IMG/VR virus record: IMGVR_UViG_3300020421_000026
Span: 1 to 54,370 of that record
Origin: a virus
Direction: 5' to 3' (one strand)
Length of the DNA: 54,370 bases
Part shown: piece after piece, positions 3,882-24,346 of the stretch
Position numbering within the stretch: position 1 is the stretch's first letter
Layout of the letters: each line of letters starts with the position of its first letter
Position numbers and translations under genes: made by a program
The notes under the pieces: model-generated
What the model saw: only the letters and a program-made list of their open reading frames with translations
What the model was told of the DNA's origin: nothing
The model's database searches: none

Positions 3882-4514
3882 ATGCAGTTTAAAAGAAGAG
3901 ATAATAATTTCAATCATATGGGTACATGGGGTGTTGCCATAGAAAACATGGTGTGTCCACGTCCAGAAATGCTTGATAGATTTGACCAAAGTGGGTATGA
4001 CCTGTGTGCATTAGAACAAGAATACGCAAAATGTAACCTAGGTGAACCACAATACATGCGTTATAAAAGATGTATTAAACAAGAATGGTATGAACCATGT
4101 GGTAATTCAACAGGTGCTCACATTAACCATTCTGATTTATATGAAAGAAAAGGTTATCATGGATATGCATTTGAACAATTAAACAATTGGACTAGTGGTA
4201 ACCATTTGTTGTACAAAATGACACAACTTAAACCTAAATGGGGAATAGATATTAGTATAGACTATGTAGATGACCAACGTAATGTTATGGAACTATTTCA
4301 TTACGAATGGGACGACCACAATTTAGACAATGTATTAGAGAAAAAAGACATAATACAGGATATAGTTGAACATAATGATTGGAATGATATTGCTAAAACT
4401 AAATTGCTACGCAAAGATGAATGGCAACATTTAGACTTTGTAGGTCAAAGTGCTTGGACAACTAAATTTTTGAATATACCAGAAGAACGTTTTAAACTAG
4501 TTCCCTGGCAATAG
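3882..4514 (+). CDS. Hypothetical protein, plus-strand singleton
   Basis: 210 aa, not recognised. Tryptophan, tyrosine, histidine and cysteine are frequent (several Cys between about residues 24 and 73), and it looks like a compact globular cytoplasmic protein with no signal peptide or membrane segment. It is transcribed alone from a plus-strand ATAAATA promoter at 3867-3873, 8 nt before the ATG, with no Shine-Dalgarno. Its last 23 bp overlap the end of the convergent radical SAM gene. That one-gene inversion within a minus-strand block suggests insertion as a mobile cassette. Confidence 0.75.
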   Translation: MQFKRRDNNFNHMGTWGVAIENMVCPRPEMLDRFDQSGYDLCALEQEYAKCNLGEPQYMRYKRCIKQEWYEPCGNSTGAHINHSDLYERKGYHGYAFEQLNNWTSGNHLLYKMTQLKPKWGIDISIDYVDDQRNVMELFHYEWDDHNLDNVLEKKDIIQDIVEHNDWNDIAKTKLLRKDEWQHLDFVGQSAWTTKFLNIPEERFKLVPWQ

Positions 4515-6177
4515 AAACTTTCTTTAAATTATCTGCATCAACTAGTTGTGACTTTATAAAACTTGTGTGTTTTTCTATAGACATTAATCTTTCAACATAG
4601 TTTTCAAAGTTTTTCTTTTCAATTTTATTCCTATCAAGCCAAGAAAACTTTTTATCCTTAACTAATTGCAAGATTTCATCAGCAGATAAATCACAACCAT
4701 CTAATCCCCATGCTCGAAACTGACCATGGAAAATAAATTTGTATCCGTTTTTGTGTTGAGACATTGTGTTTGCATAACGATGCCTTACACTAAACATTTC
4801 TTCTCCTGTGATACCGTATTTGTTTCTATAATTTGTAAAGTTATTACCTTCAGCAACATATTTCAATACATCTCCTGTCCATGGTATAAGTTCTAATCCA
4901 AAACTTTCAGGATCTGCTGTAAATTTGCTTTCTTCGTTGCTAGATTTAACTCCTTTTTTAGGCAAGTACAAAGGACTTACTACAAAACTGTCTAAAGGAT
5001 TATCATCACTTCTTAAGAATCTTAAATTTTCTCTTAGAGTATCTTTTGAATCACTAGGTAACCCTAAAATAAAATTAGAATGTACAAATACATCTTTCCA
5101 AACGTCTTGTTTTATTTCTCTTAACCAATCCATTAACTTCATTGGGTTTAATCCTTTCCCAATATCTTTAGCACTTTCACTATTAAGTGTTTCTATACCA
5201 CAATGTGCAAACACTAATCCACAGTCTTTTAAAAGTTGTGCTTGTTTTTTGAGCATTACTAAATCCAATCTTATGAAAGCACTCAATGTTATTTTAAAAG
5301 GTAATGATTTTACAACATCTGCAAATTGTTCTAGTCTTTCGTTGTCGTCATTGAATGTATCGTCACTAATCCAGTACCTAGTTGTACCATAGTTGTCATA
5401 ATTGCGTATAAGTTCTTCTCTTATTAAGTCTTTGCCCCTTACATAACTACCTGGTTCTTTGCCTAATAGTCTAAAACTACAAAAACTGCATTGAAAAATA
5501 CAACCTCTTGCAATTTCTAAAGGCATACCTTCTGTTTTTGTAATTAAATCTTCAGGACACCAAGTCATTGTTGATGTTGATATCTCATGTAAACTGTGAG
5601 GGTCCGCATAATATCTTTTTATTTCTGTTTTATTTTTTATAGACATTAAGATATCAGGAACAGTTACTTCTCCATACCCACTTGCAACAATATCTATGTT
5701 AGGATTTTTTAAACTATCCTCATTTACTATTGCTCCACCTACAATTACCTTACAATCAGGACTAATACTTTTAATATGATTTGTAATGTTTGTTTCTATG
5801 TCAAAATCTTCTACAGGTAACCATTGTGCCGCTTCAAACCCATACTGTCCTACCATGTTTAAAGTTTTTCTTGGAGATAAAGGTTGGTGTAACCACGTTG
5901 TACTTGTGCCAACTGCTAATGTATTAGGTCCTACAAACTTATCTATTATGTTATAGAACTGTTTTGCAGATAAAAACTTAGAATAATCTACAACTTGTAC
6001 AGAAAAACCTTGCAATCTGCAATGATAGGCTACTTTATAAGCACCTAATGTTCTTGTTGTAGTAGAAATTAATTCTTGGAATACGTTTCCGTATGTTTTG
6101 TCATTCGGATCAACAGATAAATTTTCAATATCGTTTGCTCTGCCTGTAAAGATTAAAAAATCTACGGGGGTTTTCAT
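4492..6177 (-). CDS. Cobalamin-type radical SAM protein (paralog A)
   Basis: 561 aa. An N-terminal Rossmann-like B12-binding-type domain (about residues 1-190, with KVIVGGA and SGYGEVTVPDIL) is followed by a radical SAM core with the [4Fe-4S] ligands C226, C230 and C233 (GCIFQCSFC). I see no DxHxxG cobalamin-ligand motif, so any cobalamin would bind without the lower His. Substrate unknown; the architecture is that of B12-dependent methylases and rearranging enzymes. Two paralogs lie at 20649 and 22559, sharing the opening TPVDFL/TPADVL and the cysteine signature. The ATG directly follows the gp16 stop codon (TAAATG). It would need a reductant, and a ferredoxin-NADP reductase is encoded at 24451. 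Family call secure, function open. Confidence 0.88.
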   Translation of the reverse strand: MKTPVDFLIFTGRANDIENLSVDPNDKTYGNVFQELISTTTRTLGAYKVAYHCRLQGFSVQVVDYSKFLSAKQFYNIIDKFVGPNTLAVGTSTTWLHQPLSPRKTLNMVGQYGFEAAQWLPVEDFDIETNITNHIKSISPDCKVIVGGAIVNEDSLKNPNIDIVASGYGEVTVPDILMSIKNKTEIKRYYADPHSLHEISTSTMTWCPEDLITKTEGMPLEIARGCIFQCSFCSFRLLGKEPGSYVRGKDLIREELIRNYDNYGTTRYWISDDTFNDDNERLEQFADVVKSLPFKITLSAFIRLDLVMLKKQAQLLKDCGLVFAHCGIETLNSESAKDIGKGLNPMKLMDWLREIKQDVWKDVFVHSNFILGLPSDSKDTLRENLRFLRSDDNPLDSFVVSPLYLPKKGVKSSNEESKFTADPESFGLELIPWTGDVLKYVAEGNNFTNYRNKYGITGEEMFSVRHRYANTMSQHKNGYKFIFHGQFRAWGLDGCDLSADEILQLVKDKKFSWLDRNKIEKKNFENYVERLMSIEKHTSFIKSQLVDADNLKKVSIARELV

Positions 6178-6678: not shown

Positions 6679-6683
6679 ACTAC

Positions 6684-6690
6684 TATTTAT
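6684..6690 (-). promoter_or_regulatory. Late promoter of gp16
   Basis: ATAAATA, GTAGT, ATG. The TAA stop of the upstream 49-aa gene lies within it. Confidence 0.75.
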
Positions 6691-6836
6691 TTCTTAGACT
6701 TGCGTTTTTTCTTTAATTTGCGTTTAGGATGCCCAAACATTTGGTCAAATCTATGATTTCTAGCATCAATATAGTCTTGTGGCTTGTCGTAAACCTTTTT
6801 TGGTGTTTTAAATTCTACTATTTCTGCTATTTTCAT
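6687..6836 (-). CDS. Small basic protein, 49 aa
   Basis: A small gene read directly from the sequence. It starts with an ATGA overlap on the stop of the di-iron protein gene and encodes 49 residues ending in a very basic tail (KRKLKKKRKSKK). Its TAA stop lies inside the late promoter of gp16. The first residues MKIAEIVEF resemble the start of the upstream di-iron protein (MKIEYTKTP). The tight overlap and sensible composition support a real gene. Nucleic-acid binding is plausible from the charge but nothing more can be said. Confidence 0.65.
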   Translation of the reverse strand: MKIAEIVEFKTPKKVYDKPQDYIDARNHRFDQMFGHPKRKLKKKRKSKK

Positions 6837-7903
6837 TTTAATGGCTTGCTTAGTTCTTCCCAACTTGTTTCATAATCACTATCACCATCAGCATATCCCA
6901 TAACACCAAGTTTTTCGTACTCAGGTATTAGTTCTTCATGTAGTAATCCAATTTTTTTCAAGTTAGGCATAATCCTACTAAACAATACATCTTGGAATTG
7001 TGTTTGGAATATATTTTCTTTTTGATATTCATCAGTATATTCTATATCCATGCCATATTTTTCCCAAACGTCATATGACCTAAGTCTATTTCTGCTTACT
7101 GTACAGGCTTCTAAGGCAAATTTTGCTCTATCTAATTTTTCTTCTTCGCTTAGTGTAGTAACAAACTCTGTTAGATACTGGATACCAAATGTAACATGTC
7201 TTGCTTCATCTCTAATTATGTATTCTAACATTTTTTCGTAAACAGGGTCGTTAGTTGATTGCTTGGCGGCGTTAAAGGCGGCTAATGCCAACCCTTCTAT
7301 TACAACTTGCATACCAATAAATTTTAAATCCCATCTTGGGTCTGTTAAAATTTTATCTAGCAAGCCTTTTAATGCTCTACCAATGGGCCAACTGCGTTTT
7401 AATCTTTGTTGTAGGTATTTGTTAAATGCTTCTACATGCCTTGCTTCATCAAATGTTTGGCTGGCGGCATATAGTTTTGCGTTATACGTTGGCGCACAAC
7501 TGGCTAACTGTGATGCAACCAATAATGCTCCTTGTTCCCCATGTAAAAATTGGCTTGTTGCCCAACTGTTTAAATCTTTAAAAAACTCTAAACGTGTTTG
7601 TTTGTCAAATGTTTTAAATGTTTTATGATTATCCCATTGGGTGTTTTCAAACTCAAACTCTTCGTCACTTATTCCTACAAAGGTTGGAGTCCAATCTACA
7701 TCAACTTCTACGTTCCAATTTAATTGTTTGCCTAATTCATATAATTTTTTAATTCTATTGTCTTGTACTGTGTAATCCCAATTGAATGAACCAGTCAAAG
7801 GTGTTTGAAAAATCTCTACTACATCAGTAGGATCTAAATTAGCCGGAACATCATCGTCAAACTCAACAACGTCCCTTGGGGTTTTCGTATATTCTATTTT
7901 CAT
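6833..7903 (-). CDS. Ferritin-like di-iron carboxylate protein, oxygenase/oxidase type
   Basis: 356 aa. The four-helix di-iron site is complete: E123 (HGEQ), E153/H156 (DEARH), E203 (VIEG) and E233/H236 (DEARH), the E-ExxH-E-ExxH pattern of ferritin-superfamily oxygenases and R2-like proteins. The helix sequences match a family of bacterial ferritin-like domain proteins with uncharacterised oxidation chemistry. It is too long for storage ferritin or MiaE, and it lacks the context of ribonucleotide reductase. Activity would require O2 and electrons. An ATAAATA promoter ends 6 nt before the ATG, without Shine-Dalgarno. It sits between gp4 and gp16, so it is expressed with late packaging genes. 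Fold and metal site are well supported; the substrate is unknown. Confidence 0.88.
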   Translation of the reverse strand: MKIEYTKTPRDVVEFDDDVPANLDPTDVVEIFQTPLTGSFNWDYTVQDNRIKKLYELGKQLNWNVEVDVDWTPTFVGISDEEFEFENTQWDNHKTFKTFDKQTRLEFFKDLNSWATSQFLHGEQGALLVASQLASCAPTYNAKLYAASQTFDEARHVEAFNKYLQQRLKRSWPIGRALKGLLDKILTDPRWDLKFIGMQVVIEGLALAAFNAAKQSTNDPVYEKMLEYIIRDEARHVTFGIQYLTEFVTTLSEEEKLDRAKFALEACTVSRNRLRSYDVWEKYGMDIEYTDEYQKENIFQTQFQDVLFSRIMPNLKKIGLLHEELIPEYEKLGVMGYADGDSDYETSWEELSKPLK

Positions 7904-7909
7904 AATAAT

Positions 7910-7916
7910 TATTTAT
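7910..7916 (-). promoter_or_regulatory. Late promoter of the di-iron protein gene
   Basis: ATAAATA with a 6-nt gap to the ATG; overlaps the last base of the gp4 gene. No Shine-Dalgarno. Confidence 0.7.
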
Positions 7917-8368
7917 TATATTCGTTTTGTTTTTCTGCCAGATTGTTTTCGGAAAATCTGGTCTTCTGTAATCACTTTAAAGTGTAAACCTTTTGCTTTG
8001 CACCAGGCTTGAGCGGCTTCCCACTTAACTGCATTAACTTGTATAGACATTTTGTCATACTTGTCTCTGGCTTTTTCTTGTAGTGTTTGTGCTTTAGGTT
8101 TGATTTCGATTAAATCAACTCTAGTCTTTCCGTTTTTGTCTGTGTATTGCACCATAAAGTCAGGTACATAATTAGTAATTTTACCACTGAAAGGGTGTCT
8201 ATAAGGAATCTTTACATTCTCACTTGCCCACTTGGTAATGTTAGGATGGCTATCACAAAACCTCATAAACGCCATCTCCCAACTGCTACGAGCAAATGGT
8301 TGCTTATTGCCTACAAACTTTTCTGGATTTTGTACGGAGTAATTGCCTTGTGAATACCTACTAGACAT
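7916..8368 (-). CDS. gp4: Head completion protein gp4, PD-ExK nuclease-like
   Basis: 150 aa, the size of T4 gp4. T4 gp4 (with gp2 and gp50) finishes the filled head before tail joining. The conserved pattern is visible: SSWEMAFMRF near residue 30, a WASE segment at about 47-50, then VPDF (69-70) and LIEIK (E88, K90), which together look like a PD-(D/E)xK nuclease active site. A Shine-Dalgarno (AGGAG) precedes the ATG. It is in the same unit as the 144-aa protein and the tail-tube-like gene upstream. Confidence 0.88.
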   Translation of the reverse strand: MSSRYSQGNYSVQNPEKFVGNKQPFARSSWEMAFMRFCDSHPNITKWASENVKIPYRHPFSGKITNYVPDFMVQYTDKNGKTRVDLIEIKPKAQTLQEKARDKYDKMSIQVNAVKWEAAQAWCKAKGLHFKVITEDQIFRKQSGRKTKRI

Positions 8369-8377
8369 GTGTTACTC

Positions 8378-8812
8378 CTACGGTCTAATCTTATTTGCGA
8401 TTTTAGATTGATTGTTTTTGCTAGATACTTTAAGACCTATCTGGTTACCCACTGGTCTTAATTCATTTATTGCTTTATAAGTATTTTCTGCTAACTTGAT
8501 TGAATCTTCATTTATTTCAAAATAAGATATAGGATGAACTCCTTGTGCATCAGCAACTTTAATAAGTGCTACTGCTAATGCTCTTGCATTAGACTTTGCA
8601 AAGCCTATGCTTGTTAATCTGTTAAACACTATATCCATTTTGTCTGCAGATATGCCTCTGTCATCTACTGCTAACATGTTGACTAGTATTTCTAAACTTG
8701 CTTCTGGTAAAGGAAAGTTTATTGTGTTGTTTTCTAAAAACTTCACAAGTTTGTCTCTACGAACTTCGTAACTTATTTCATTACCAAATGTTGTATATAA
8801 ACTCTCACTCAT
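8378..8812 (-). CDS. Conserved hypothetical protein between tail-tube-like gene and gp4
   Basis: 144 aa, all-helical in appearance, no signal or membrane segment, basic C-terminus. I think it belongs to a small conserved family in marine T4-like phages but cannot name a function. Its ATG overlaps the stop codon of the 415-aa tail-tube-like gene as TAATG, so it is translationally coupled to a tail gene. A neck or tail-completion role (gp3-like position) is possible, but I see no sequence match to T4 gp3. Confidence 0.7.
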   Translation of the reverse strand: MSESLYTTFGNEISYEVRRDKLVKFLENNTINFPLPEASLEILVNMLAVDDRGISADKMDIVFNRLTSIGFAKSNARALAVALIKVADAQGVHPISYFEINEDSIKLAENTYKAINELRPVGNQIGLKVSSKNNQSKIANKIRP

Positions 8813-10059
8813 TATGCTGATCCGCCTCCACCAAAGCCTGCCGCCGCGGCTTGAGCCGCATTGTATTCATCTGCCATTGCCGCCGCTTCTTCATCTGTAA
8901 GTGGGCCTGCACCTTGAGGTCCAGTCTTATCTTGTTGTATGCTGGTATCTTTTTTAGCACCTTGTTCTTTAGGAACTTCTTTATTTCCAGTAGCACCTGG
9001 TGTACTGTTATTTGCAAAGTTACCTAACCATGAAGTTTGTTCGTTTCTATTTACTGCATCAACAAAATTTTCTGTTCTTGATTCAGACCAAGATGGACTT
9101 CTAGAGTTTGCTCTACTACCACCTGGTATGTCATCTGTGTTTGGATCACCATCTCTTAATCTGCTCCAGTGTCCTCTATTGAAGTCTGAAAATCTTTGTA
9201 GGTCATCTTCAGTAATAAATTCATTTATGATTGGTTGCATAGCAAAATTTTCATATGTTATATCCATAGTAATTAAGTTTGCTTCACTTGAACTGTGGTC
9301 AATGCCATCAATTTCAAAATTTGTAATCATTGGTCTGAACAAAGTGTACTTAATACACCTTTGTCCGTGATATTGAACTATGTCAATGCTGTCTATAAAG
9401 TTCCTAACAGCGGCAGGTTGTAATCTCAAACCCATAAAGTCGCTATCAAAACTATCATTGAACGAAGCAAAACCACTTCCATCTCCACTAGGTACTTCTC
9501 CTGGAACTATGTCATGCGGAGTTGCAACAGGCAACAAAGGATCACCTGCACTGGAACCTGGTTGAAATTTTCCTGATGGATTTAAAAACAAATGTTGGTA
9601 AGCCGCCATTAATACACTTACCCATATAGAATCAACTGTATCATATGCAACCATTTGTAATGGTTTAAATTCTGTATGAGTTACAGTTATTCTCTTTCTG
9701 TTGTATTGATTTTTTACGTCTGTTTGTATTTCAGCACTTGGAATACCAGATTGTCTAATTAAACTGCTTAACGTAAGTTGGTCTTGAAGACCTTGTTGTA
9801 CAGCAACTGGTAAGTCAACTTCCGGGTTGAAGTGGAAGTTGACATAACCATTAAATTTTTGACGTACTGGTGTATTTCCAGGCTTGAACCTTCTTGCATT
9901 TTGAAAGTCTCGCATGTAATGGTTCTTACCAAATTTGTCTTCACCATTAGTTCCATGTGAGTCTTCTACCCTTTGGCCATTGAACATATCAAAGCCGCCG
10001 GCTCGCATCAGAAAGTATCTACCATAACCTCTTATTTTTTCTTTACTTAAAAAAGCCAT
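8812..10059 (-). CDS. Tail-tube-family protein (gp19/gp54-like)
   Basis: 415 aa. The central part has the pattern of tail-tube-fold proteins: alternating beta segments such as RKRITVTHTEFKPL, IKYTLFRPMITNFEID and MDITYENFAMQP. It directly follows gp19. The C-terminal third is low complexity (Ser, Asn, Gln, Ala) and ends in an Ala/Gly-rich tail (GFGGGGSA). The most likely role is a second tube-family protein such as the baseplate tube initiator gp54 or a tube terminator. I cannot separate these by eye. It is co-transcribed with gp19, with a purine-rich Shine-Dalgarno (AGAGAG) ahead of the ATG. Confidence 0.6.
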   Translation of the reverse strand: MAFLSKEKIRGYGRYFLMRAGGFDMFNGQRVEDSHGTNGEDKFGKNHYMRDFQNARRFKPGNTPVRQKFNGYVNFHFNPEVDLPVAVQQGLQDQLTLSSLIRQSGIPSAEIQTDVKNQYNRKRITVTHTEFKPLQMVAYDTVDSIWVSVLMAAYQHLFLNPSGKFQPGSSAGDPLLPVATPHDIVPGEVPSGDGSGFASFNDSFDSDFMGLRLQPAAVRNFIDSIDIVQYHGQRCIKYTLFRPMITNFEIDGIDHSSSEANLITMDITYENFAMQPIINEFITEDDLQRFSDFNRGHWSRLRDGDPNTDDIPGGSRANSRSPSWSESRTENFVDAVNRNEQTSWLGNFANNSTPGATGNKEVPKEQGAKKDTSIQQDKTGPQGAGPLTDEEAAAMADEYNAAQAAAAGFGGGGSA

Positions 10060-10097
10060 TAGTTATACTCTCTTAAATCGTTATAATCTTAAAAAGA

Positions 10098-14551: not shown

Positions 14552-14558
14552 TATTTAT
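14552..14558 (-). promoter_or_regulatory. Late promoter of gp1
   Basis: ATAAATA overlapping the stop of the upstream oxygenase-like gene, 20 nt before the gp1 ATG, with AGGAAT between. Confidence 0.55.
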
Positions 14559-15415
14559 TTAAAAAAATTTCCGGTATCTACCAGTTCTTCTATTTGTTTG
14601 AAAGTAAATTCTGTATTTGCATGTACTCTAAATGAAACTCTAGGTGTGCCATTTGTAAGTACTCTATGCCATTGGGCAAGGTTTACAATGTAAGCATTGT
14701 GCATACCCTTGTGTTCTACTATTGGTGTCAAATCATCATACCAACTTTCATCCGAAAGCCAATGTTGAGTTGCTTTCATGCACATTTTATTTTGTTCAAC
14801 AATCTTTTCCCAAAAAGGTTCATCAGGTCTTTCTGTAAAAAATTTATTGATTAATTCTTTCTCATTTTGTAACATACGTTCAGTAGGTCTGGCAAATTCT
14901 AATACACTACCGTCTATGTCTCCTAGCAATCTAAAATTTATTACAGCAGGTGCTCTCATATTTTTTATATACTCAACACCAAATTCTTTTGGTATTGTTT
15001 CTTCATTAGGTATCTCTATAGGGCCTTCTTTATGCCAACCAGAAGGATCTGAAAAACATAAAATAGTTACAGGAGGATGAGAATGCATTCCATCTTTCCA
15101 TATTTTTTGAAAAACATCTGGTCTAAACGTATCATTCATCCAAGTCCAAACGTCATGTTTCATTTTTGTATCTGTTATTACTGCTTCACCATTAAAAAGA
15201 TTTTCTCTTTGAACATATTTCCATGCATCTTTATTCTTATTATCCATATATGTTCCAGCCATCCAATTATTCCATCTTACTGTTTTTCCGTTTATAGTTA
15301 AATCTGAGGGAACAGGTATATTACCATTGAACAAATCGAATTCGTAGTCACTAAAAATATTTTCAGCAGTAAACGGAAAGTCTATATCAGGAATATCACA
15401 ATAACATTCTAACAT
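14555..15415 (-). CDS. WHxE-family oxygenase-like protein (paralog 3 of 4)
   Basis: 286 aa. It belongs to a family of four in this window, defined by a shared framework: an acidic N-terminal motif (FPFTAENIFSD), a WHxE motif (GWHKEG), an NFRL strand (INFRLLGD), a late HRV motif (QWHRV), then R-V-S-F-R and a hydrophobic end (TGNFFK). The His/Glu, distal His and Arg fit the HxE-H-R facial triad and 2-oxoglutarate anchor of Fe(II)/2OG oxygenases on a jelly-roll fold. Activity is inferred, not established. The start overlaps the previous paralog by 7 nt. Substrate unknown; candidates include phage or host nucleic acid, protein or cofactor. Confidence 0.72.
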   Translation of the reverse strand: MLECYCDIPDIDFPFTAENIFSDYEFDLFNGNIPVPSDLTINGKTVRWNNWMAGTYMDNKNKDAWKYVQRENLFNGEAVITDTKMKHDVWTWMNDTFRPDVFQKIWKDGMHSHPPVTILCFSDPSGWHKEGPIEIPNEETIPKEFGVEYIKNMRAPAVINFRLLGDIDGSVLEFARPTERMLQNEKELINKFFTERPDEPFWEKIVEQNKMCMKATQHWLSDESWYDDLTPIVEHKGMHNAYIVNLAQWHRVLTNGTPRVSFRVHANTEFTFKQIEELVDTGNFFK

Positions 15416-16311
15416 TTTAATAATATCCCTTGTTGCCTATAATCTTTCATTGTGTTCCAATCTAATTTCATACCACTATGCAGTCTAAAAGTAACTCTAG
15501 TAGATTGGTCTCCTACAAGTACTCTGTGTAAACTTCCAAAATCTAACATAAAAGGAGACTTAAATCCTTTTTTAGTCTCTTGTACATTCATATGATTGTG
15601 CCATGGTTTTGTATCTAGTATTTGATCCACTGGTCCATAGGATTGAATTGTTGGCGACTCTTCGTTATCTCTAGCAAAAGTATAAAATCCTTCTTTTGCC
15701 TCCATCCACTTTTTAAAAAATTTTTCTCTAGTATCAATTATTGTTTGACTAAATTCATCTGACATTTCTGCAAATTCTATAGAACTGTTTTCTTCATCGC
15801 CTATTAATCTAAAATTGCAAACTGACGTAGAAACTCTCCACCATGGTCCCCACCATTTAGATAGATTGGATCTATTTTCTCTAATATGTTTTAATCTAAT
15901 AGGATCTGTTTCGCCGGGCTCCATGTGCCAAGGAGAATTGTTATTCCATACTAATATTGATACAGGTGCAATATTTGGAAAAGAACCACCCTTAAATAAA
16001 TCGCCAATCCAGTCTTCATGATATGTATCATTTACCCATTCCCAAAATATTCGTGAGAGTTTATTAGGTCTATTTCTGAGAATTCCTGTTGAACCTTTAG
16101 CAACTTTGACAATCTCGTCACCGTTTTCATTGACATGTCTTTTTACATTCCTAATCCATATAATATTTTCTGTTTGTATCGTATTTTCACTAATTGTTGT
16201 ATTAGTGTAATTATTTCCATATATCTCATCATAATCTTCATCTGTAAATAATTCATCTACTGTAAATGGTAAAGAGAGTTCTTCATTTGTGAATTCTAAA
16301 TAGTTGTTCAT
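15409..16311 (-). CDS. WHxE-family oxygenase-like protein (paralog 2 of 4)
   Basis: 300 aa, paralogous to its neighbours. Framework residues: LPFTVDELFTDED near residue 15, PWHMEPG (WHxE) in the middle, CNFRLIGD, SLHRV near residue 270, then RVTFRLHSG and the terminal GILLK. The third Trp of the usual WHRV is Leu here. It overlaps the upstream paralog by ATGA and the downstream one by 7 nt, so the three are one translationally coupled unit. The divergence between copies, only short motifs being shared, suggests old duplication and separate substrates. Predicted Fe(II)/2OG-type oxygenase by motif only. Confidence 0.72.
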   Translation of the reverse strand: MNNYLEFTNEELSLPFTVDELFTDEDYDEIYGNNYTNTTISENTIQTENIIWIRNVKRHVNENGDEIVKVAKGSTGILRNRPNKLSRIFWEWVNDTYHEDWIGDLFKGGSFPNIAPVSILVWNNNSPWHMEPGETDPIRLKHIRENRSNLSKWWGPWWRVSTSVCNFRLIGDEENSSIEFAEMSDEFSQTIIDTREKFFKKWMEAKEGFYTFARDNEESPTIQSYGPVDQILDTKPWHNHMNVQETKKGFKSPFMLDFGSLHRVLVGDQSTRVTFRLHSGMKLDWNTMKDYRQQGILLKC

Positions 16312-17159
16312 TTTAAAAGTTCTCCTTCTTCATGCATTTTTCTAAATGTACTAAAAGGAGTATCTTGTTTTGATTGGAAAACTAAACTTAATCTTATCTC
16401 ACCAGGGTTGTCTAAATACACTCTGTGCCAACTTGCTACATTTACTAAAAAAGGACTGTCGTATCCTTCTTTACAATTTATTTCTGTTAGATTGCTTTCC
16501 ATTTTACTACCAGGTTTTATTGCATCTCTGTTTGCAAAAGACTTAAAACTTTTGGTTTCATCTTCAGCATACTCTACTTGAGATACAAAAGGAGCATTAT
16601 TAAATTTATTATCTAACTCATTATATACGTTTCTTAATGAATTGTCAAATGTTTTATCATGATTTGCAAATTTTATTCTTGTGCCTGTTGTTGGGCCTAC
16701 TAAGTTAAAATTTAATCTTGTGCTGGATCTAAATCGTTGAAAATGTTTTGGGTTTGCAAAAGAATGCATTCCTTCGTGATGCCAATGCCCTGTGTCTGGA
16801 TAATGTAAAATTAAACTTGCTGGAAATATCTGTTCTCCAACATTAAATCCGGGCCACTTTTGATGTGTCCACATGTTATCTAAAAATTGTTTGGGATTTT
16901 TAAATGTATCATTTATAAAACTGTAAAGTCTTCTTGCAATCTTTTTATCCGTAATCATTGCCATTGCGGCTGTCCAATGTAACTTGTCTGTTTTTATCCA
17001 GGACTCTTGTCTTGCTTGTGCTTGTTGTATGAGTGCTAAATCGCCACGCATAATACGACGGTCATCTTCACATAATAACTCGTCAGCACTTATGGGACAT
17101 TCTAGTTGGGGTAGGTTGATAAATGTGTCTTTATCCGATAACAAATCCGAGTGGTGCAT
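16308..17159 (-). CDS. WHxE-family oxygenase-like protein (paralog 1 of 4)
   Basis: 283 aa from the ATG at 17159. A longer frame starts at a TTG inside gp13, but the ATG gives an N-terminus (FINLPQLECPISADELL) aligned with the other paralogs and has a purine-rich site just ahead. Motifs: HWHHEG (WHxE), LNFNLVG, SWHRV, then RLSLVF and the terminal GELLK. An HxE-H-R arrangement suggests a non-haem Fe(II)/2OG oxygenase. It overlaps the end of gp13 by 29 bp, so it is expressed in the gp13 late transcript. Confidence 0.72.
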   Translation of the reverse strand: MHHSDLLSDKDTFINLPQLECPISADELLCEDDRRIMRGDLALIQQAQARQESWIKTDKLHWTAAMAMITDKKIARRLYSFINDTFKNPKQFLDNMWTHQKWPGFNVGEQIFPASLILHYPDTGHWHHEGMHSFANPKHFQRFRSSTRLNFNLVGPTTGTRIKFANHDKTFDNSLRNVYNELDNKFNNAPFVSQVEYAEDETKSFKSFANRDAIKPGSKMESNLTEINCKEGYDSPFLVNVASWHRVYLDNPGEIRLSLVFQSKQDTPFSTFRKMHEEGELLK

Positions 17160-17898
17160 TTCCTTCTTCCATATTGTGTAATGATGCAATCAATTGTTCC
17201 ATTTCAGTTAATGCTTCACTTTTTAGAGCATCACCATTCAATGTTGTAGCACCGCCAGGTCCAGGAAGTCCACCAGGGAATTTGCTTCTTGCCTCACCTA
17301 ACATCATTTTACTTTGTGCTAAGGCATAGGCACTTAGCCACTCTGCGGCATAAACGTCTTTGATTAACACACTTTCTGGAATAAAGTTATTGACTCCTAC
17401 TGCAATATCTTCTTCGTGATTTACATTTCTTAGAATTGTTAATTCTTTTGTATTCCTGTTAAAGGTAAAGTTGTATTCGCTACCAAACACACGACCAATA
17501 GTTTCTTTGTATTGTGCAAATGCATCAAATACTGCTAGTCCACCTATTTGTCCTGCTTGTAACATATACATATTGTTGAATGCAACATCAAATGGATCAA
17601 AGTTAGTACCGCCACCACTATTGGTACCAATACCACGTCTATATAATCTTTTAACGTCTATAACTTCTTGAGGTAATGTATATTTTGTAACACCTGCTTG
17701 AGTTTGAACGAATATAACTGCTTCTTCTACACTTCCTGTACTTAATTGTCTGTACTTTTGTATAGATTTATTAATTGCTACATCGTAATGGTCCCTGTCT
17801 AATTCAACATCTACCATACCATCAGCAAGACGTAATTGAATTTCTTCAATTATTTCGTTTCTACTGTTATATCCTATTTGGTCTATTCTTGTTGCCAT
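17131..17898 (-). CDS. gp13: Neck protein gp13
   Basis: 255 aa from the ATG at 17898. A longer frame would read through the late promoter and is rejected. gp13 and gp14 form the neck collar to which the tail joins. Features of the family: NEIIEEIQLRLADGMVDVEL at the N-terminus, DHYDVAINKSIQKY, EVIDVKRLYR, and a C-terminal segment with EARSKFPGGLPGPGG leading to a helix ending LIASLHNMEE, as in T4 gp13 (LPGGVTVDGQ). The ATAAATAGTAGTATG arrangement puts the promoter 5 nt before the start, without Shine-Dalgarno. gp14 is at 27874 on the other strand. Confidence 0.82.
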   Translation of the reverse strand: MATRIDQIGYNSRNEIIEEIQLRLADGMVDVELDRDHYDVAINKSIQKYRQLSTGSVEEAVIFVQTQAGVTKYTLPQEVIDVKRLYRRGIGTNSGGGTNFDPFDVAFNNMYMLQAGQIGGLAVFDAFAQYKETIGRVFGSEYNFTFNRNTKELTILRNVNHEEDIAVGVNNFIPESVLIKDVYAAEWLSAYALAQSKMMLGEARSKFPGGLPGPGGATTLNGDALKSEALTEMEQLIASLHNMEEGNAPLGFVIG

Positions 17899-17903
17899 AC
17901 TAC

Positions 17904-17910
17904 TATTTAT
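17904..17910 (-). promoter_or_regulatory. Late promoter of gp13
   Basis: ATAAATA, GTAGT, ATG: identical to the gp16 arrangement. It decides the gp13 start at 17898. Confidence 0.75.
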
Positions 17911-17931
17911 CACTTTTTGGTATTATACCAG

Positions 17932-17938
17932 ATAAATA
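17932..17938 (+). promoter_or_regulatory. Late promoter of inverted WHxE paralog
   Basis: ATAAATA, TATGC, ATG. Identical over this stretch to the promoter at 27823 on the other strand. Divergent from the gp13 promoter. Between them lies an 11-nt palindrome-like GGTATTATACC. Confidence 0.7.
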
Positions 17939-17943
17939 TATGC

Positions 17944-19026
17944 ATGGATACAAACTACTACAACTATATAGAACATACAAAGCATAATATGTCTAAAATT
18001 TTAGACAAAGGCAGTATTGTACCCATAAAAGATGATGTAGGCGTAGGTTTTAGGTACTATGACACCGATAAAACAGACCAACTACAAATGAAAAAATTTA
18101 GAACAGTTGCTGATTATGATCCTAGATTATCAAATCAGTTTACTAAAGAAGATTCTTTTTTAGACTTTCCTGAGTTAAATTTACCTATAGACCTAGATGA
18201 TTTCTTTACAGATATAGACCACGAAATTTGTGAAAAGAAATTTTGGGGGAAAGGTGATGAGGACGACTCATCTACTCAACAAGTTGTTCATTCAAAGAAT
18301 ATAGGCTGGTTAATACATCCTGCTAGAAGTATAGGAACTAAAGTTGCTAAAGATGATAAAAGAGGTGTGTGCATTGGACATATTTTAAGTCCTAAGTACA
18401 AAAAATATTTTTGGGAATATGCAAACGACACTTTCCATGAAGATTTTATAGACATTATTAAAGACCATTTAGGATACAAACAAGTTCCTGTTAGTATTAT
18501 ATCAATAAAAGATTTACATCATTGGCATCACGAAGGTGTTCAACCTTGGCATGATTATACTCCAATTCCATATTATACAAGACGCACAGAAACATGTATT
18601 AACTTTAGATTATTTTCATCAACTGACGATGACGAAACAGAAGTAAATTTTGGTTGGCCCTCCGTTGAAGTGCATAAAGAGTTTTCTAAAATATCAGACG
18701 AACTAAATGAAAATATTATAGATAAATTTCAAGGAGATGAAGGCAGAAAGGTTGAATGGATACATAATGAAAATCTACAAATAAAAACTGCACTACATCA
18801 AGATACTATACTACCAGATTCACAACTCAATGACGAGATAGAATTAGTTGCAACTAAAAAAGGATATCATTGCCCTTTTATGATTAACACTAACTACTGG
18901 CATAGAGTTTACACAAAGGATACAAAGACACCTAGAATAACTTTAAGATTTTTTAGTCCTATGGGAGTTCCGTTTCATCATTTTAGAAAGTTACACCAGG
19001 AAGGTAAACTTTTAAAAAACTTGTAA
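17944..19026 (+). CDS. WHxE-family oxygenase-like protein (paralog 4 of 4, inverted)
   Basis: 360 aa from the ATG at 17944. An upstream in-frame start at 17836 is rejected because it lies within gp13 and before the promoter. Same framework as the three minus-strand copies: LDFPELNLPIDLDDFFTD, HWHHEG (WHxE), INFRLFSS, YWHRV, RITLRFFSP, and terminal GKLLKNL. It carries an extra N-terminal segment of about 60 residues. A plus-strand ATAAATA ends 5 nt before the ATG. It faces away from gp13 with only 45 bp between starts, and its last 15 bp overlap the convergent gene at 19012. Confidence 0.75.
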   Translation: MDTNYYNYIEHTKHNMSKILDKGSIVPIKDDVGVGFRYYDTDKTDQLQMKKFRTVADYDPRLSNQFTKEDSFLDFPELNLPIDLDDFFTDIDHEICEKKFWGKGDEDDSSTQQVVHSKNIGWLIHPARSIGTKVAKDDKRGVCIGHILSPKYKKYFWEYANDTFHEDFIDIIKDHLGYKQVPVSIISIKDLHHWHHEGVQPWHDYTPIPYYTRRTETCINFRLFSSTDDDETEVNFGWPSVEVHKEFSKISDELNENIIDKFQGDEGRKVEWIHNENLQIKTALHQDTILPDSQLNDEIELVATKKGYHCPFMINTNYWHRVYTKDTKTPRITLRFFSPMGVPFHHFRKLHQEGKLLKNL

Positions 19027-20172
19027 TAATATAGTTTGTTCATTTAACCTACCTGTAAGTTTAGTAGGTGTTGTTTTTACTTCATCAAATGCTTTTGCAA
19101 ATTTTGTTTTTGCTCTACCAGTCCAATTATTAATTTGTTCTGCAGGCTTTCTTAAAGTTTTTTGCAAACTTGTTTCTTCGTCAAAGTCTTGTATAGTAGT
19201 TCCTTTAACCATTAAACCTGCACCTTGTCTTTGTAACCCACGTGGGTCTTTGTCTTTTGCGTGGTAAACTCCTACTTTACGGGTCTTTGTATTGTACACC
19301 CATAGTTCATTGGCGTAAACGACGTCTGTGGGCGAGATAGATGCTATTCCTAATGCTCCATCGTTGAGTTGAAACTTTAGTTTTTTAATAATTACATCTT
19401 TACTTCTTGCTCTAGGCTTACGTTGTTTTCTGTTTGCTTTACCTGTAAGTATAATTGCATCACAGGCGGCATTTATTTTTTCAAAGAATGCAACATAATC
19501 TTTCTTCATTTTCTTATCCATAAAACTATATGCTTCTTTAAGTTGTTCACATGTGCCTTCCAAACTTTCTACTGCTTCTGCATGATTAAGTTCATATTGG
19601 TCTTTAATCATTTTAGCATGTGCTGGCTTAATAACTCCGCCACCAAATACTTTCATATCTTTCTCAGGATCAAACTTTTTAAGATTAAACTTTTCTGTTT
19701 CTATAAAAGTATCTAGTAAGTCGTCCCATTCGCCGCATAGGTCAGTTATTTGCAAAAGCATTCTTTCTTGTATTGATATTTTTGGTGGTGCTTCTTTTTG
19801 TTTTTCTTGTATCTCTTCCACAATTTCCATACCTGTCTTAATAAGTTCTTCTTTTTTTGTAGCATAGAATTTAGCAAAACGTTCTGGCATATATCCTAAC
19901 TTATACCAACACCAGCCGTACTTTGCACTACTGCTAAATCTCCAGTCTGGATTTTTAAGTATTATTTTTATTTCTTCTTTGTCCCAACCACTTGCTTCTT
20001 TTACCCACTTGCGATATTTGGATACTGCATCTTTAGTTGAAATTTCAGAATGTACAAAATAGTCAACCGACCTGAATGCCAACTCTTGTTGTTCAGGATC
20101 AGTGATAGCCTGATACTTTTTCCAGTCAGGCTCTTTTGTTACATATACTGTTCTTTGCTTTCGTTTTGCCAT
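19012..20172 (-). CDS. Conserved hypothetical protein, 386 aa
   Basis: Basic N-terminus (MAKRKQRTVYV), a charged helical middle (about residues 100-260, Lys/Glu-rich), and a beta-rich C-terminal domain (about 280-340, IASISPTDVVYANELWVYNTKTRKVGVYHA). I believe relatives exist in marine T4-like phages but cannot name the function. No signal peptide or membrane segment. No clear promoter or strong Shine-Dalgarno is visible. A perfect 10-bp inverted repeat lies upstream at 20213-20248. It ends in a 15-bp convergent overlap with the oxygenase-like gene. Confidence 0.75.
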   Translation of the reverse strand: MAKRKQRTVYVTKEPDWKKYQAITDPEQQELAFRSVDYFVHSEISTKDAVSKYRKWVKEASGWDKEEIKIILKNPDWRFSSSAKYGWCWYKLGYMPERFAKFYATKKEELIKTGMEIVEEIQEKQKEAPPKISIQERMLLQITDLCGEWDDLLDTFIETEKFNLKKFDPEKDMKVFGGGVIKPAHAKMIKDQYELNHAEAVESLEGTCEQLKEAYSFMDKKMKKDYVAFFEKINAACDAIILTGKANRKQRKPRARSKDVIIKKLKFQLNDGALGIASISPTDVVYANELWVYNTKTRKVGVYHAKDKDPRGLQRQGAGLMVKGTTIQDFDEETSLQKTLRKPAEQINNWTGRAKTKFAKAFDEVKTTPTKLTGRLNEQTILLQVF

Positions 20173-20212
20173 CTTTTGTTTTTTACCAAAATATAGTGCT
20201 AGTTAGTATAAC

Positions 20213-20248
20213 TTCAAAAATTTTTTATGTCAATTGGTAATTTTTGAA
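20213..20248. repeat. 10-bp inverted repeat upstream of 386-aa gene
   Basis: TTCAAAAATT/AATTTTTGAA with a 16-nt loop in the gap between the FabZ-like and 386-aa genes. Could be a weak terminator or a binding site. The gap holds no gene. Confidence 0.45.
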
Positions 20249-20263
20249 CTAAAAGGAGGTTTT

Positions 20264-20686
20264 TTATAGTTTTTTGGCTGTTAATCCTACTGTTGCTGAT
20301 GCAACACGTGATTCACCATCGAATACTTTGCAATCATAAAACATATGATGCATTTTACGTTTGGCAAGTTTGGCTTCTAACCTTAATCTTGTTCCAGGAA
20401 ATACAGGATATCTAAATTTACATTTGTCAACACTAGTAACAAATGTAACATAATCTTCATGTTTAAGTTCACCATTCTCTTTTCCTGCTAAGTGAAGTGC
20501 GTGAAGTCCAGCACATTGGTTCATACCTTCAATAATATAAACACCGGGCCATATTTTTACATGTGGGAAATGTCCTTCTAATACTGGATGAGCATCATGA
20601 ACCATATATGTTGCTTCTATTTCTTCATCACTAAGAATAGTGTGTTCGTCAATCAGTGCTATTGGATGTCTGTGTGGTAGTTCCAT
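20264..20686 (-). CDS. FabZ-like 3-hydroxyacyl-ACP dehydratase (hotdog fold)
   Basis: 140 aa, the size of FabZ (about 150). FabZ dehydrates 3-hydroxyacyl-ACP in fatty acid elongation. Visible signatures: LPHRHPIALIDE at residues 3-14 (FabZ LPHRYPFLLVD), GHFP with the catalytic His39, and PGVYIIEGMNQ with Glu53, then FRYPVFPGTRLRLEA. The active-site pair is intact. The ATG lies 38 bp inside the 3' end of the radical SAM gene upstream and has a GTAAATA late-like element 6 nt ahead. The start is supported because the motif begins at residue 3. It may alter host lipids or make a modified acyl group for the adjacent radical SAM enzymes. Family confident; pathway role inferred. Confidence 0.85.
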   Translation of the reverse strand: MELPHRHPIALIDEHTILSDEEIEATYMVHDAHPVLEGHFPHVKIWPGVYIIEGMNQCAGLHALHLAGKENGELKHEDYVTFVTSVDKCKFRYPVFPGTRLRLEAKLAKRKMHHMFYDCKVFDGESRVASATVGLTAKKL

Positions 20687-22562
20687 GTAGAGTATTTACA
20701 CCGTCAACATAAATTACTTTGTCATATTTGGTATGACTTGATACTTGCCCAACTAGGTTCCAATATTTTCTCAAATAATTTTCACCTGTTGGAGTATGGA
20801 CTGCTTCTTTTTTGAAGTACCCACCACTCATCATTTGTCGCGGTATATATCCTTTGCTATCAAAATATCTCATAGTTGTTTGCAAAGCAAATCTCATAGC
20901 AGTCATGTGTGTAATTCCGTGTCTATTAATATAACTGCTAAAATTATGTGCTAGTTCATCTTGTGGTAAATGTTTTGATTGTGGATTTATTCTAGAAAAT
21001 TTATATCCATATTTTTCTGGATCTTCAACTATAGGAGATTCTTTGCCTCCTGTAATTTGTTTTACTCTAGAAGATTCTGGTGCGTTCATAGTGTATGCAT
21101 TTACGTCTAAACAATCTAATTTATTGTAGTTTGGATCACAAATTTTATCAGCCATAATCTTCAATTCTTTTTTACTGTCCTCAGGTAAGCCTACCATAAA
21201 CATACTGAACAATGTTACCTGGTCTCCAAATGGAGTATCTTGTAAATCGGCAATGTATGCCATTTGTTCATCTGGATGCCAACCTTTATTAATAGCAACA
21301 GCACTATCAGGGATAAGTGTCTCAATGCCATAATGTGCAAATACTAACCCTGAGTCTATTAATACTTGTTCTTGTTTTAATCTGTTTTGTAAATCTAATC
21401 TTATAAATGCTGTATATTCCAAAGGTATATCTAACTTTTCTTTTAGTTTTGCAATTTTAATAATTTTTTCTGTATCATCATTAAAAGTATCATCTGCCAT
21501 CCAATACCTATGTACTCCATGCTCGTACCAATTACGTTTGATTTCATCTTCTAATAAACTTTGACTTCTAAGATAACTGCCTTTTTCTTTTCCAGTTAAA
21601 CCAAAATTACAAAAACTACATTCAAAAATACAACCTCTTGCTGTTTCCATTGTAAGCATATCATTTGTTTGCAAACAATCTTCAGGTGTATATTGCATAG
21701 TTGAATTAGTTATATCAAGTCTACTACCAACATCTGTATAAAAATTTACTCGTTTTTTATTGTCTATATCTTCTAAAATTTCTGTAATCGTGACATCTCC
21801 ATATCCATTGTTTACTATATCAATGTCTCCAATTGGAGAATCAGACATTTCAATTGTTTCTTTCTTAAGTGCAGGTCCAATTGCTCCACCTAATATCATT
21901 TTAGTATCTGGATTTCTTTCATGTATCCACTGTTTTATCTTTTTTTGACGACCAGGCATGAAATATAAACTGTGAACTAATCCATGAGGATTTGATATAC
22001 CTGAAAATACAGTACTAAAACAAACCGCTCTAGTATTTTCCCCAACAAATTTGTAAAATATCTTTTGAAAATCTTGTTCAGTTGCATAAAAATGGTGTCC
22101 TATAACTTGACAAGTGTACCCTGCTTTTCTTATTTCATGTGCAACTTTAAATCCGCCAAAACCTTTTGCAGTAACATCATATACCATGTGTTCACTGTAA
22201 TCCCAAAGACCAACTGGACTCTCTTCAATAGGATGGTCTCGTTGAGCACATCTTAAATATGCTCTATATTCTCTGTCTGTTAATTCTTTTCTTCCCAATT
22301 CCTGAAAAGCGGCACCGGGATATGTAATAGAAGAATACCATGCAGGAGTAATATCAGATGTAAACATCAAAACATCTGCCGGTGTATGTTCTATTTCGTG
22401 TAATGGGGTATCATCTAACATGCCTACTGGTGAGATAGGTATGCCAGCAAATGCATATGGATCTTCTTCTGTAAACTTTCTTTCTCTAAACCTTTCCCAA
22501 ACTGGTGCACGAATTCTTACTTTTTCTAGTGTATTATATATTCGTTTTTCTTCTGGTGTCAT
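20649..22562 (-). CDS. Cobalamin-type radical SAM protein (paralog B)
   Basis: 637 aa, the longest of three paralogs, with about 55 extra N-terminal residues. The B12-binding-type domain spans roughly 58-265 (TPADVLMF start, KMILGGAIGPA, NNGYGDVTITEIL). The radical SAM cysteines are C311, C315 and C318 (GCIFECSFC), followed by GLTGKEKGSYLR, also found in paralog A. A C-terminal helical domain extends to the end. The ATG overlaps the stop of paralog C (ATGA). The FabZ-like gene overlaps its 3' end, so the three genes are one unit. Substrate unknown. Confidence 0.88.
   Translation of the reverse strand: MTPEEKRIYNTLEKVRIRAPVWERFRERKFTEEDPYAFAGIPISPVGMLDDTPLHEIEHTPADVLMFTSDITPAWYSSITYPGAAFQELGRKELTDREYRAYLRCAQRDHPIEESPVGLWDYSEHMVYDVTAKGFGGFKVAHEIRKAGYTCQVIGHHFYATEQDFQKIFYKFVGENTRAVCFSTVFSGISNPHGLVHSLYFMPGRQKKIKQWIHERNPDTKMILGGAIGPALKKETIEMSDSPIGDIDIVNNGYGDVTITEILEDIDNKKRVNFYTDVGSRLDITNSTMQYTPEDCLQTNDMLTMETARGCIFECSFCNFGLTGKEKGSYLRSQSLLEDEIKRNWYEHGVHRYWMADDTFNDDTEKIIKIAKLKEKLDIPLEYTAFIRLDLQNRLKQEQVLIDSGLVFAHYGIETLIPDSAVAINKGWHPDEQMAYIADLQDTPFGDQVTLFSMFMVGLPEDSKKELKIMADKICDPNYNKLDCLDVNAYTMNAPESSRVKQITGGKESPIVEDPEKYGYKFSRINPQSKHLPQDELAHNFSSYINRHGITHMTAMRFALQTTMRYFDSKGYIPRQMMSGGYFKKEAVHTPTGENYLRKYWNLVGQVSSHTKYDKVIYVDGVNTLHGTTTQTSNSTD
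20693..20699 (-). promoter_or_regulatory. Variant late promoter of FabZ-like gene
   Basis: GTAAATA, one mismatch to the usual element, 6 nt before the ATG and inside the upstream coding sequence. Confidence 0.4.
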
Positions 22563-24346
22563 TTTTTTAATACTTGTTCTATGTATTTGTTGTACCTGTT
22601 AATCTCTACTTTGTTAATTCTTTCTACAGAATCCAAATCAAACTCATCAAATTCTTCAGGTGTAATATTTTCGCCTTCTTTGTAAGGTAATCCAAAAGAT
22701 TTAAAAAGCATATTGGGCCAAAGTTTACCTGCGTCCATTAGTCTTTTATTTAATCTATTAGAAAATTTTAAGGCATCTACAAATGTAATGCCATTTTTAT
22801 TTTTATATAAAAATTGTGCATGAAAAAACTTTTGTATTTCTGGTTCCATTTCTTTTCCATTCATATATTGTGTAGTAGGTTCGTAACCGTAATCTCTCCA
22901 ATTCTTCTGGAATTCACTATCAGTTCTTTCATCAAATCCTTCTGGTGTAATACTTAATGGTCTTACTGCTGTACCTACCATAGGATTTTTATCTGATACT
23001 AAAAAGTTTGCCATTTCTTTTATACTTTTCTTTGTATCACTAGGTAGTCCTACAATCATACCGCTACCCATATCAACATGTGACCAAACACCGTCTTTAA
23101 GTTCACGCATGTATTCAAATTGTGTCATTGGATTTAAACCTTTACCAATGTCGACTGCACTATCGGGGTCAGTTGTTTCCACTCCAAACTGTACATGTAC
23201 TATTCCTGCATCTCGAATAATTTCTGCTTGACTAGGAGTTCTATTTCTATTTGCATATAATAAATCTAATCTTATGTAACAAGCAAACTTTAATTTAAAA
23301 GGCAATGTTTTGGACATTTCCATAAAGTCTATCATTTTATCGTGGTCATCATTGAACGTATCATCTACAATCCAATAATGTTCTACTCCAAACTTTTCAT
23401 AATTATGTACAAGTTCTTCTCGTATAAGATCCATGCATCTAATACCTTCACCTTTTTGTTTTCCATTTAATGCAAAAGAACAAAACTTACATTTGAATAT
23501 ACAACCTCTGCTAATTTCAATAGGTAATATTTCGCCTGGATATAAACAATCGTCTTCGTGCCATTTCATTGTGGAGTGTTTTACATCTTGTTTGCTGAAT
23601 ACATCTTCTTTAAAAGGTAACCCAAAATTGTTTTTAGGTAATTGTTCTACATCTCCGTCTTTTAATTCTGTTAGTATTTCAGGTACAGTGATATCGCCAT
23701 ATCCTATGTTTACAATATCAACATGTTTGTAATCTGATTTTTTATTTGTAAATGCTCCGCCTTTCATTAATTTTGTTTTTGGGTTGACTTTCTTAAGATG
23801 TTCTACAAACAGTTCATCTATTTCAGGACCATGTGGTAAAAATCCTACATACGCCTGTGTATCATCTGAGGTTGCACCATATTTTTCTTTAACGTCATGT
23901 CCATAAAAAGGATCTAAGTTTGTATAGGAAGGTCGTACATTTAATCTATTTGGTATTTTTGCTATAAAAGTATTACTAATACCTACTGCTAAAGTATTTT
24001 CTCCAACGTATTTGTCTAATACTTTTCTCAAAGTTGCTATATCCATATGAGTTATTAAGTCAACTACTTGTACAGTAAAGCCACTTTCTCTAACTTCATG
24101 AGCAACTTTATAAGGTCCTAATGCTCTACTGCCTACAAAAGGGAACATATCAAACCAGCCAAGTTGCCACAAAGGTGAATTAAGTCTCTCAGGATCATTT
24201 TCTTTTAAGTATTTGCTGGACTCAGCAAGATGTTGTTTTACTTCATATCCGTGTGATTGTATTCCCCAGCCGATATTATCAGCAAGTAGTAGGAAATCTA
24301 CAGGTGTATGTTCCACCTCTATTGAACTATAAGGGTTATATTGCAT
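22559..24346 (-). CDS. Cobalamin-type radical SAM protein (paralog C)
   Basis: 595 aa. The B12-type domain starts at TPVDFLLL (about residue 14) and includes KLMKGGAFT and NIGYGDITVPEIL. The radical SAM ligands are C282, C286 and C289 (GCIFKCKFC). First gene of a three-gene unit with paralog B and the FabZ-like dehydratase. An ATAAATA element lies 7 nt before the ATG at 24354-24360, immediately next to the 3' end of tRNA-Arg, so the promoter may also separate tRNA and mRNA transcripts. As in the paralogs, no DxHxxG is seen. Likely electron donor: a reductase system such as the product of 24451. Confidence 0.88.
   Translation of the reverse strand: MQYNPYSSIEVEHTPVDFLLLADNIGWGIQSHGYEVKQHLAESSKYLKENDPERLNSPLWQLGWFDMFPFVGSRALGPYKVAHEVRESGFTVQVVDLITHMDIATLRKVLDKYVGENTLAVGISNTFIAKIPNRLNVRPSYTNLDPFYGHDVKEKYGATSDDTQAYVGFLPHGPEIDELFVEHLKKVNPKTKLMKGGAFTNKKSDYKHVDIVNIGYGDITVPEILTELKDGDVEQLPKNNFGLPFKEDVFSKQDVKHSTMKWHEDDCLYPGEILPIEISRGCIFKCKFCSFALNGKQKGEGIRCMDLIREELVHNYEKFGVEHYWIVDDTFNDDHDKMIDFMEMSKTLPFKLKFACYIRLDLLYANRNRTPSQAEIIRDAGIVHVQFGVETTDPDSAVDIGKGLNPMTQFEYMRELKDGVWSHVDMGSGMIVGLPSDTKKSIKEMANFLVSDKNPMVGTAVRPLSITPEGFDERTDSEFQKNWRDYGYEPTTQYMNGKEMEPEIQKFFHAQFLYKNKNGITFVDALKFSNRLNKRLMDAGKLWPNMLFKSFGLPYKEGENITPEEFDEFDLDSVERINKVEINRYNKYIEQVLKK

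Follow-up and report, generated by a model that had tools for sequence, protein, structure and literature searches.

The question raised by this locus is why a single phage should carry three large radical S-adenosylmethionine (SAM) proteins of the vitamin B12 type, enzymes familiar from antibiotic, hopanoid and cofactor pathways, and what they might do there. The genes were examined in IMG/VR record IMGVR_UViG_3300020421_000026, a fragment of a large marine T4-type myovirus whose entire 54,370 bases constitute the window analyzed in this study. Two of the three copies stand side by side in a small cassette, between genes for a ferredoxin-NADP reductase and a FabZ-like dehydratase, for which a role in modifying acyl chains is put forward tentatively. 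The three copies are as follows:

4492..6177, minus strand: copy 1, B12-type radical SAM protein, 561 aa; PF04055 at 51.5 bits; second site, beside the terminase region

20649..22562, minus strand: copy 2, B12-type radical SAM protein, 637 aa; PF04055 at 39.1 bits; start overlaps copy 3 by 4 nt

22559..24346, minus strand: copy 3, B12-type radical SAM protein, 595 aa; PF04055 at 53.2 bits; also placed by the family tree

All three open reading frames are intact, and each product scores above the 29.5-bit cut-off of the Pfam Radical_SAM domain (PF04055), with the CxxxCxxC motif of the superfamily present in 71/71 members of the family defined below. Copies 2 and 3 are 34-37% identical to copy 1 and more than 100 columns are invariant among the three, so chance similarity is excluded. 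A first-pass annotation of the window had described three paralogues sharing the openings TPVDFL and GCIFxCxFC. The paralogy is borne out by the intact frames, the domain scores and the tree; of the motifs, GCIFxCxFC is found in every copy, whereas TPVDFL is exact in two and reads TPADVL in the 637-aa copy. Other motifs common to the three are GGA, GYG[DE], DDTFNDD and IRLDL. The reading frames of all three copies are under selection, with ratios of nonsynonymous to synonymous substitution (dN/dS) against relatives of ~0.10 and ~0.18 for two of them (copy 3 at ~0.18 against locus L015). None of the named NCBIfam B12-radical SAM families examined (TIGR04072, HpnJ, PhpK, RiPP and others) reached its curated cut-off, the best score being 73.3 bits against the 360 set for TIGR04072.

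A search of viral contigs with a three-row alignment recovered 29 viral loci, and one with 20 rows recovered 385 relatives, of which the best 80 were kept (to E 2e-60). Scanning of 84,980 cellular species genomes, which relied on two short patterns and so was not exhaustive, gave 374 matches; among the best 80 of these, which were kept, family membership was clear for 9 proteins, which lie on 8 contigs and score 264-436 bits, with a drop to 107 bits for the next match. For tree and neighbor analysis, 118 proteins above 150 bits were reduced to one representative for each of 72 clusters at 90%, and the family set of 71 consisted of 68 proteins of at least 440 aa from outside the window plus the three window copies. 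In a tree of these 71 members and five outgroup rows, the window copies belong to a single 19-row clade (support values 100/99), in which they form three old lineages; L017 and L020 gained their tandem copies by later duplication, and the members from species genomes sit among viral branches. As judged from these pattern scans, the family is virus-centred. The rarity claimed for three copies in one phage was overstated: among 30 related virus records, with weak partial matches excluded, full copies number three in 5, two in 5 and one in 20, so uniqueness is rejected, and passages of PMC9723712 describe a huge virus with 15 radical SAM enzymes and mention a B12-binding domain. Among 50,697 deposited phage records, copy 1 has one match at 25% and copies 2 and 3 have none; two uncultured Caudovirales proteins in BFVD have a similar fold (template modelling scores 0.80 and 0.70).

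The first-pass annotation overlooked the cassette around the copies at 20649 and 22559 and its acyl-carrier context. The cassette and its flanks comprise the following:

24451..25167, minus strand: ferredoxin/flavodoxin-NADP(H) reductase, Fpr type, first cassette gene; PF00175 and PF00970 above cut-off

24367..24443, minus strand: tRNA-Arg (tct), in the 104-nt gap between the reductase and copy 3 (ARAGORN)

20264..20686, minus strand: FabZ-like hot-dog dehydratase; PF07977 at 66.2 bits against a cut-off of 23; overlaps copy 2 by 38 nt

19012..20172, minus strand: phrog_11903 homologue, conserved flank of a hot spot; PHROG E 1.5e-47; anchor for 81 loci

27874..28902, plus strand: virion structural protein, opposite conserved flank; phrog_11591, E 3e-90

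The reductase is of the full-length Fpr type, matching solved ferredoxin-NADP reductases over residues 2-238 (phmmer, E 1.5e-75), and RAYSIAS and GTG[IL]APF are found in 12/12 of its viral homologues. The dehydratase shares the fold family of FabZ, the 3-hydroxyacyl-acyl-carrier-protein dehydratase, and aligns to solved FabZ through the catalytic His/Glu motif GHFP..PGV..EGM, which occurs in 11/11 viral homologues; it is called FabZ-like because its score for the NCBIfam FabZ equivalog NF000582 is lower than required (89.5 vs 113 bits). Gene order is constant: in 11/11 loci containing the reductase cluster, among 58 listed, the reductase lies directly upstream of a run of one to three radical SAM genes and FabZ directly downstream of it.

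The site between the phrog_11903 homologue and the virion protein, which has a matching position in L313, L319, L331, L361 and L305, is a cargo hot spot where relatives hold other genes or almost none. In L313 and L319, genes that by eye appear to encode an amidinotransferase and a sugar epimerase take the place of the cassette. Co-occurrence was counted in the 52 of the 81 phrog_11903-anchored loci with at least 3 kb upstream, the 29 shorter loci being left out and some of the loci coming from contigs already used (e.g., L355 and L371). Both FabZ and radical SAM genes were found in 12 loci, neither in 39, FabZ alone in 1 (L361) and radical SAM alone in 0 (Fisher p 6e-11 for 52 loci whose rows are not independent and are uncorrected for kinship). 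In L361, the reductase and FabZ-like genes adjoin at 7761-8919, downstream of an apparent HNH gene, an arrangement that may represent a loss from the cassette or a minimal form of it. The reductase was present in 12/13 records of the window clade that had been chosen for the family.

Genes for acyl-chain metabolism also surround family members elsewhere. Of the 30 virus records bearing the family (window included), 13 contain FabZ, 6 a carrier protein and 9 a desaturase, with at least one of these in 23, compared to 1, 0 and 2, respectively, in 30 control relatives selected by portal, a rough comparison in that the controls are shorter on average and all belong to the clade of the window. The single control with FabZ (G044) has a radical SAM gene adjoining it. 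Desaturase was set aside as a weak marker since it is not specific, occurring in 2/30 controls that lack the family; a desaturase-cluster gene (Pfam run on two cluster members) lies directly beside the family gene in 6/58 loci listed. Stronger evidence than the counts over records comes from single cases. A carrier-protein gene overlaps the start of the family gene in L196; in L214 (also numbered L168) the family gene stands beside a ketosynthase, two carrier proteins, AcpS, a desaturase and FabZ; and L213 holds AcpS, a fatty-acid hydroxylase and a carrier protein. Seen together with L211, the last two loci, with their AcpS, carrier proteins and several desaturases besides the hydroxylase of L213 and the ketosynthase of L214, resemble a phage acyl pathway. 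In a Bacteroidetes metagenome-assembled genome (L062) the family gene occurs with a nonribosomal peptide synthetase (NRPS) module, a carrier domain and another radical SAM gene, and Endobugula sertula (L068) has three of the same gene clusters, assigned by cluster and not by Pfam; the gene group shared by L062 and L068 is a candidate biosynthetic cluster, with the NRPS in L062. In L176, L177, L178, L180, L189 and L179, radical SAM genes near the family gene encode a zinc ribbon of the HMPTM type (from a Pfam scan of the L189 copy); we take these genes to be related to those of archaeal lipid-joining enzymes.

The substrates of two characterized relatives point in the same direction. CysS, the cystobactamid C-methylase (PDB 9n1b-9n1d), acts on a pantetheine-linked substrate (passages of PMC12846815; the titles of 9n1b and 9n1c name a pantetheinylated substrate), and the title of 7kdy names a pantetheinylated substrate for the carbapenem C-methylase TokK (7kdx, 7kdy). 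Because of these substrates and the acyl-gene neighbors, a carrier-bound acyl chain would be the likeliest substrate and C-methylation the likeliest reaction. The cassette copies are thus read here, tentatively and with a little less than even confidence, as B12-dependent C-methylases or similar radical enzymes that work on carrier-bound acyl chains and are powered via the phage reductase, where cobalamin, substrate, order of steps, product and benefit are the parts that we infer. The two cassette copies would act on acyl thioesters held by acyl-carrier protein (ACP), for which the host is proposed as the supplier because neither the window nor the other records of its clade, all of them fragments, yielded a carrier protein. 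The reaction itself would most likely be methylation of unactivated carbons or some similar radical chemistry, as with CysS and TokK. The phage ferredoxin-NADP reductase would take electrons from NADPH and deliver them, with a flavodoxin or ferredoxin of the host as intermediate, to both the cobalt and the [4Fe-4S] cluster; such an electron feed is established for radical SAM and B12 enzymes of E. coli. The FabZ-like enzyme would dehydrate a 3-hydroxyacyl thioester, either ahead of the radical reaction or following it, and the altered acyl chains, now methyl-branched or unsaturated, would end up in the host membrane, the envelope or a small acylated molecule. These gene associations suggest that fatty-acid-like chains are remodelled by such viruses within the host cell.

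It is possible, if unlikely, that the substrate is not an acyl chain but a peptide or virion protein, as in the pathways of ribosomally synthesized and post-translationally modified peptides (RiPPs), a nucleobase or a surface sugar. Weak matches, all below cut-off, to models of PhpK, a RiPP C-methyltransferase and AprD4 would be consistent with this, as would the SPASM radical SAM proteins, QueC-like ATPase and 2-oxoglutarate oxygenases that distant viral relatives also adjoin. However, a non-acyl substrate would leave aside the tight link of FabZ to radical SAM genes in the window clade, as well as the carrier-protein, ketosynthase, AcpS and desaturase genes of relatives.

The second part of the question concerns the cofactor. 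The first-pass annotation took the proteins for B12-type enzymes and looked to structure prediction for a corrinoid site. AlphaFold models of copy 1 (predicted local distance difference test, pLDDT, 87; predicted template modelling score, pTM, 0.89) and copy 2 (pLDDT 72, pTM 0.77) contain an N-terminal Rossmann domain followed by a radical SAM barrel, the architecture of class 1 cobalamin-dependent radical SAM enzymes (OxsB, TsrM, TokK type; Z 14-19), with copy 3 assigned by alignment alone. The copy 1 model matches AprD4 (Z 19.0), CysS (18.9), TsrM (18.7), OxsB (18.2) and TokK (15.6), the copy 2 model matches AprD4 (18.7), OxsB (18.6) and CysS (18.6), and MgmA is also among the fold matches of both. 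The annotation was therefore right about the architecture in two models, but dependence on cobalamin does not follow: the fold alone cannot settle corrinoid binding because a Rossmann domain with a barrel is common to B12 radical SAM enzymes and to AprD4, MiaB and RimO, which score similarly. AprD4 is a dehydratase that is not known to use bound cobalamin. MiaB and RimO are methylthiotransferases with three conserved cysteines in the N-terminal domain, an identity ruled out here because the family has no conserved N-terminal cysteines, copy 3 being without any cysteine before residue 267.

The sequence evidence tilts to B12 use, and the three proteins probably use this vitamin. Alignment of the family profile with TokK and CysS extends over their N-terminal halves, whereas with AprD4 it is restricted to the radical SAM region; the best PDB match of the profile is TokK (E 2.5e-10), with AprD4 second (E 4.9e-10), and copy 1 alone gave no match to the PDB by phmmer. 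The B12-binding domain PF02310 is detected at E up to 0.01 in 41/71 family members and Radical_SAM in 71/71, the glycines GG147-148 are conserved in 70/71 and 71/71 rows, and at residue 95, which follows strand 3, 65/71 rows have F or W. The absence of DxHxxG, correctly reported in the first-pass annotation, extends over the whole length of the three copies and the first 230 residues, the region examined, of all 71 family members, and it is normal for the class, in which the lower face of the cobalt is occupied by a residue from the loop that follows strand 3 (passages of PMC13331322). In CysS and TokK this loop places Trp75 and Trp76, respectively, under the cobalt (passages of PMC12846815 and PMC13331322), and residue 95 may be the equivalent of that tryptophan, in a phage loop that is longer and poorly predicted. 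CysS thus resembles the phage proteins in its domain order and in an aromatic residue at this position (passages of PMC12846815), but shares only ~12-16% identity with them and is a single gene of an antibiotic pathway, where the phage genes form an array; TokK, the best sequence match, is 13-14% identical (Z 14-16).

An alternative that seems quite unlikely is that these are B12-independent, AprD4-like radical enzymes that retain the Rossmann domain for scaffolding or for substrate binding and catalyze a dehydration or rearrangement by radical chemistry, perhaps with the same substrate as the FabZ-like enzyme. AprD4 (6fd2), which acts on an aminoglycoside, has the highest Z for both models, a similar length and domain order and the second-best sequence match, PF02310 is absent in copies 2 and 3, and in a host that is a SAR11-like B12 auxotroph (passages of PMC9296465) an enzyme independent of B12 would be the easier one to operate. 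However, the alignment of AprD4 leaves out the N-terminal domain that TokK and CysS cover, and the PF02310 matches in 41/71 members also weigh against this alternative. The AprD4-type equivalog NF033070 is far from reached, copy 3 scoring 30.1 bits against 500 and copies 1 and 2 not being among the matches, although the copies may still work like AprD4 despite this score.

Several findings weigh against reading the cassette copies as B12-dependent enzymes of acyl chains. In addition to the top rank of AprD4 by fold, RimO and MiaB reach Z 17-18 with the copy 1 model and are close for both, and PF02310 scores 23.9 bits in copy 1, below the cut-off of 32.1, with no match in copies 2 and 3. Copy 2 evolves fast (dN/dS 0.37-0.44). 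Among the family-bearing records, 7/30 have no FabZ, carrier protein or desaturase, copy 1 is without acyl-gene neighbors, and both the lack of a carrier protein in the window clade and the roughness of the control comparison belong here as well. In addition, L361 keeps the reductase and FabZ with no radical SAM gene within 9 kb, a more distant reductase occurs without FabZ or radical SAM in 8/33 loci with 7 kb upstream, and the reductase appears in 3/30 portal-selected relatives, two with a radical SAM gene and one (G041) without, beside curli-like genes. The reductase-only loci, L361, the variable contents of the hot spot and an R2/AurF-like diiron protein encoded in the window could also mean that the cassette is unrelated cargo, its reductase serving general iron-sulphur and diiron enzymes and its FabZ boosting host fatty-acid synthesis, but this is the least probable explanation, as FabZ and radical SAM agree in 51/52 loci, gene order is constant in 11/11 and the reading frames overlap.

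Some elements of the proposed B12-dependent acyl cassette have precedents in phages. Passages of PMC7029224 describe pelagimyophages, T4-type marine phages, with radical SAM cassettes and, in freshwater ones, fabF and a desaturase, and name no B12-type family, reductase or FabZ cassette for them. Carrier proteins are on record for Eneladusvirus (passages of PMC7760394), and the huge virus with 15 radical SAM enzymes belongs to a set of viruses of methanogens and methanotrophic archaea for which passages of PMC9723712 contain no acyl cassette. A literature search covering few subscription papers found no account of a phage cassette combining the reductase, B12-type radical SAM and FabZ; as far as it showed, this combination is new, while phage radical SAM cassettes, fabF, desaturase and carrier proteins were known.

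The remainder of the window provides the phage background. Portal, sheath, terminase and sheath stabilizer genes are present, and the portal and sheath are closest to those of PA5oct-like jumbo phages (52% and 43%). The CHASE2-cyclase and curli assembly genes are nearest to those of Pelagibacter phage HTVC008M and Methylophilales phage Melnitz; at 31717-38580, in this phage with a PA5oct-like portal and sheath, the CHASE2/guanylate cyclase gene adjoins a curli-like block, with a Curlin repeat at 33614 and a gene at 36492 that is 46.8% identical to the HTVC008M curli assembly gene. The R2/AurF-like diiron protein (6833-7903) is without a match in the 50,697 phage records and has two copies in L006. 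Four paralogous genes at 14555-19026 form a cluster (c9) whose copy number varies among relatives. A fourth radical SAM gene lies near the cassette:

26498-27817, minus strand: SPASM-type radical SAM gene, in which the SPASM domain precedes the radical SAM domain

This gene is outside the three-copy family, and its homologues occur near the family gene in other viruses.

These findings describe a branch of radical SAM proteins that is mostly viral, tandem-duplicated and travels with a likely electron donor and a fatty-acid-type dehydratase, in a cassette small enough (three to five genes) to be testable as a whole. A broader and more doubtful proposal is that systems for acyl-carrier assembly and tailoring are encoded by large phages themselves, either in full (AcpS, carrier proteins, ketosynthase, FabZ and desaturase) or, as in this window, as a stripped cassette working on host acyl-ACP; methyl-branched or otherwise unusual chains would then be made in the course of infection, at a cost in host B12. 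Should the enzymes act on carrier-bound acyl chains, C-methylation of lipids or small molecules by radical chemistry would be among the activities of phages, and infection would come to depend on vitamin B12, which is scarce in the sea.

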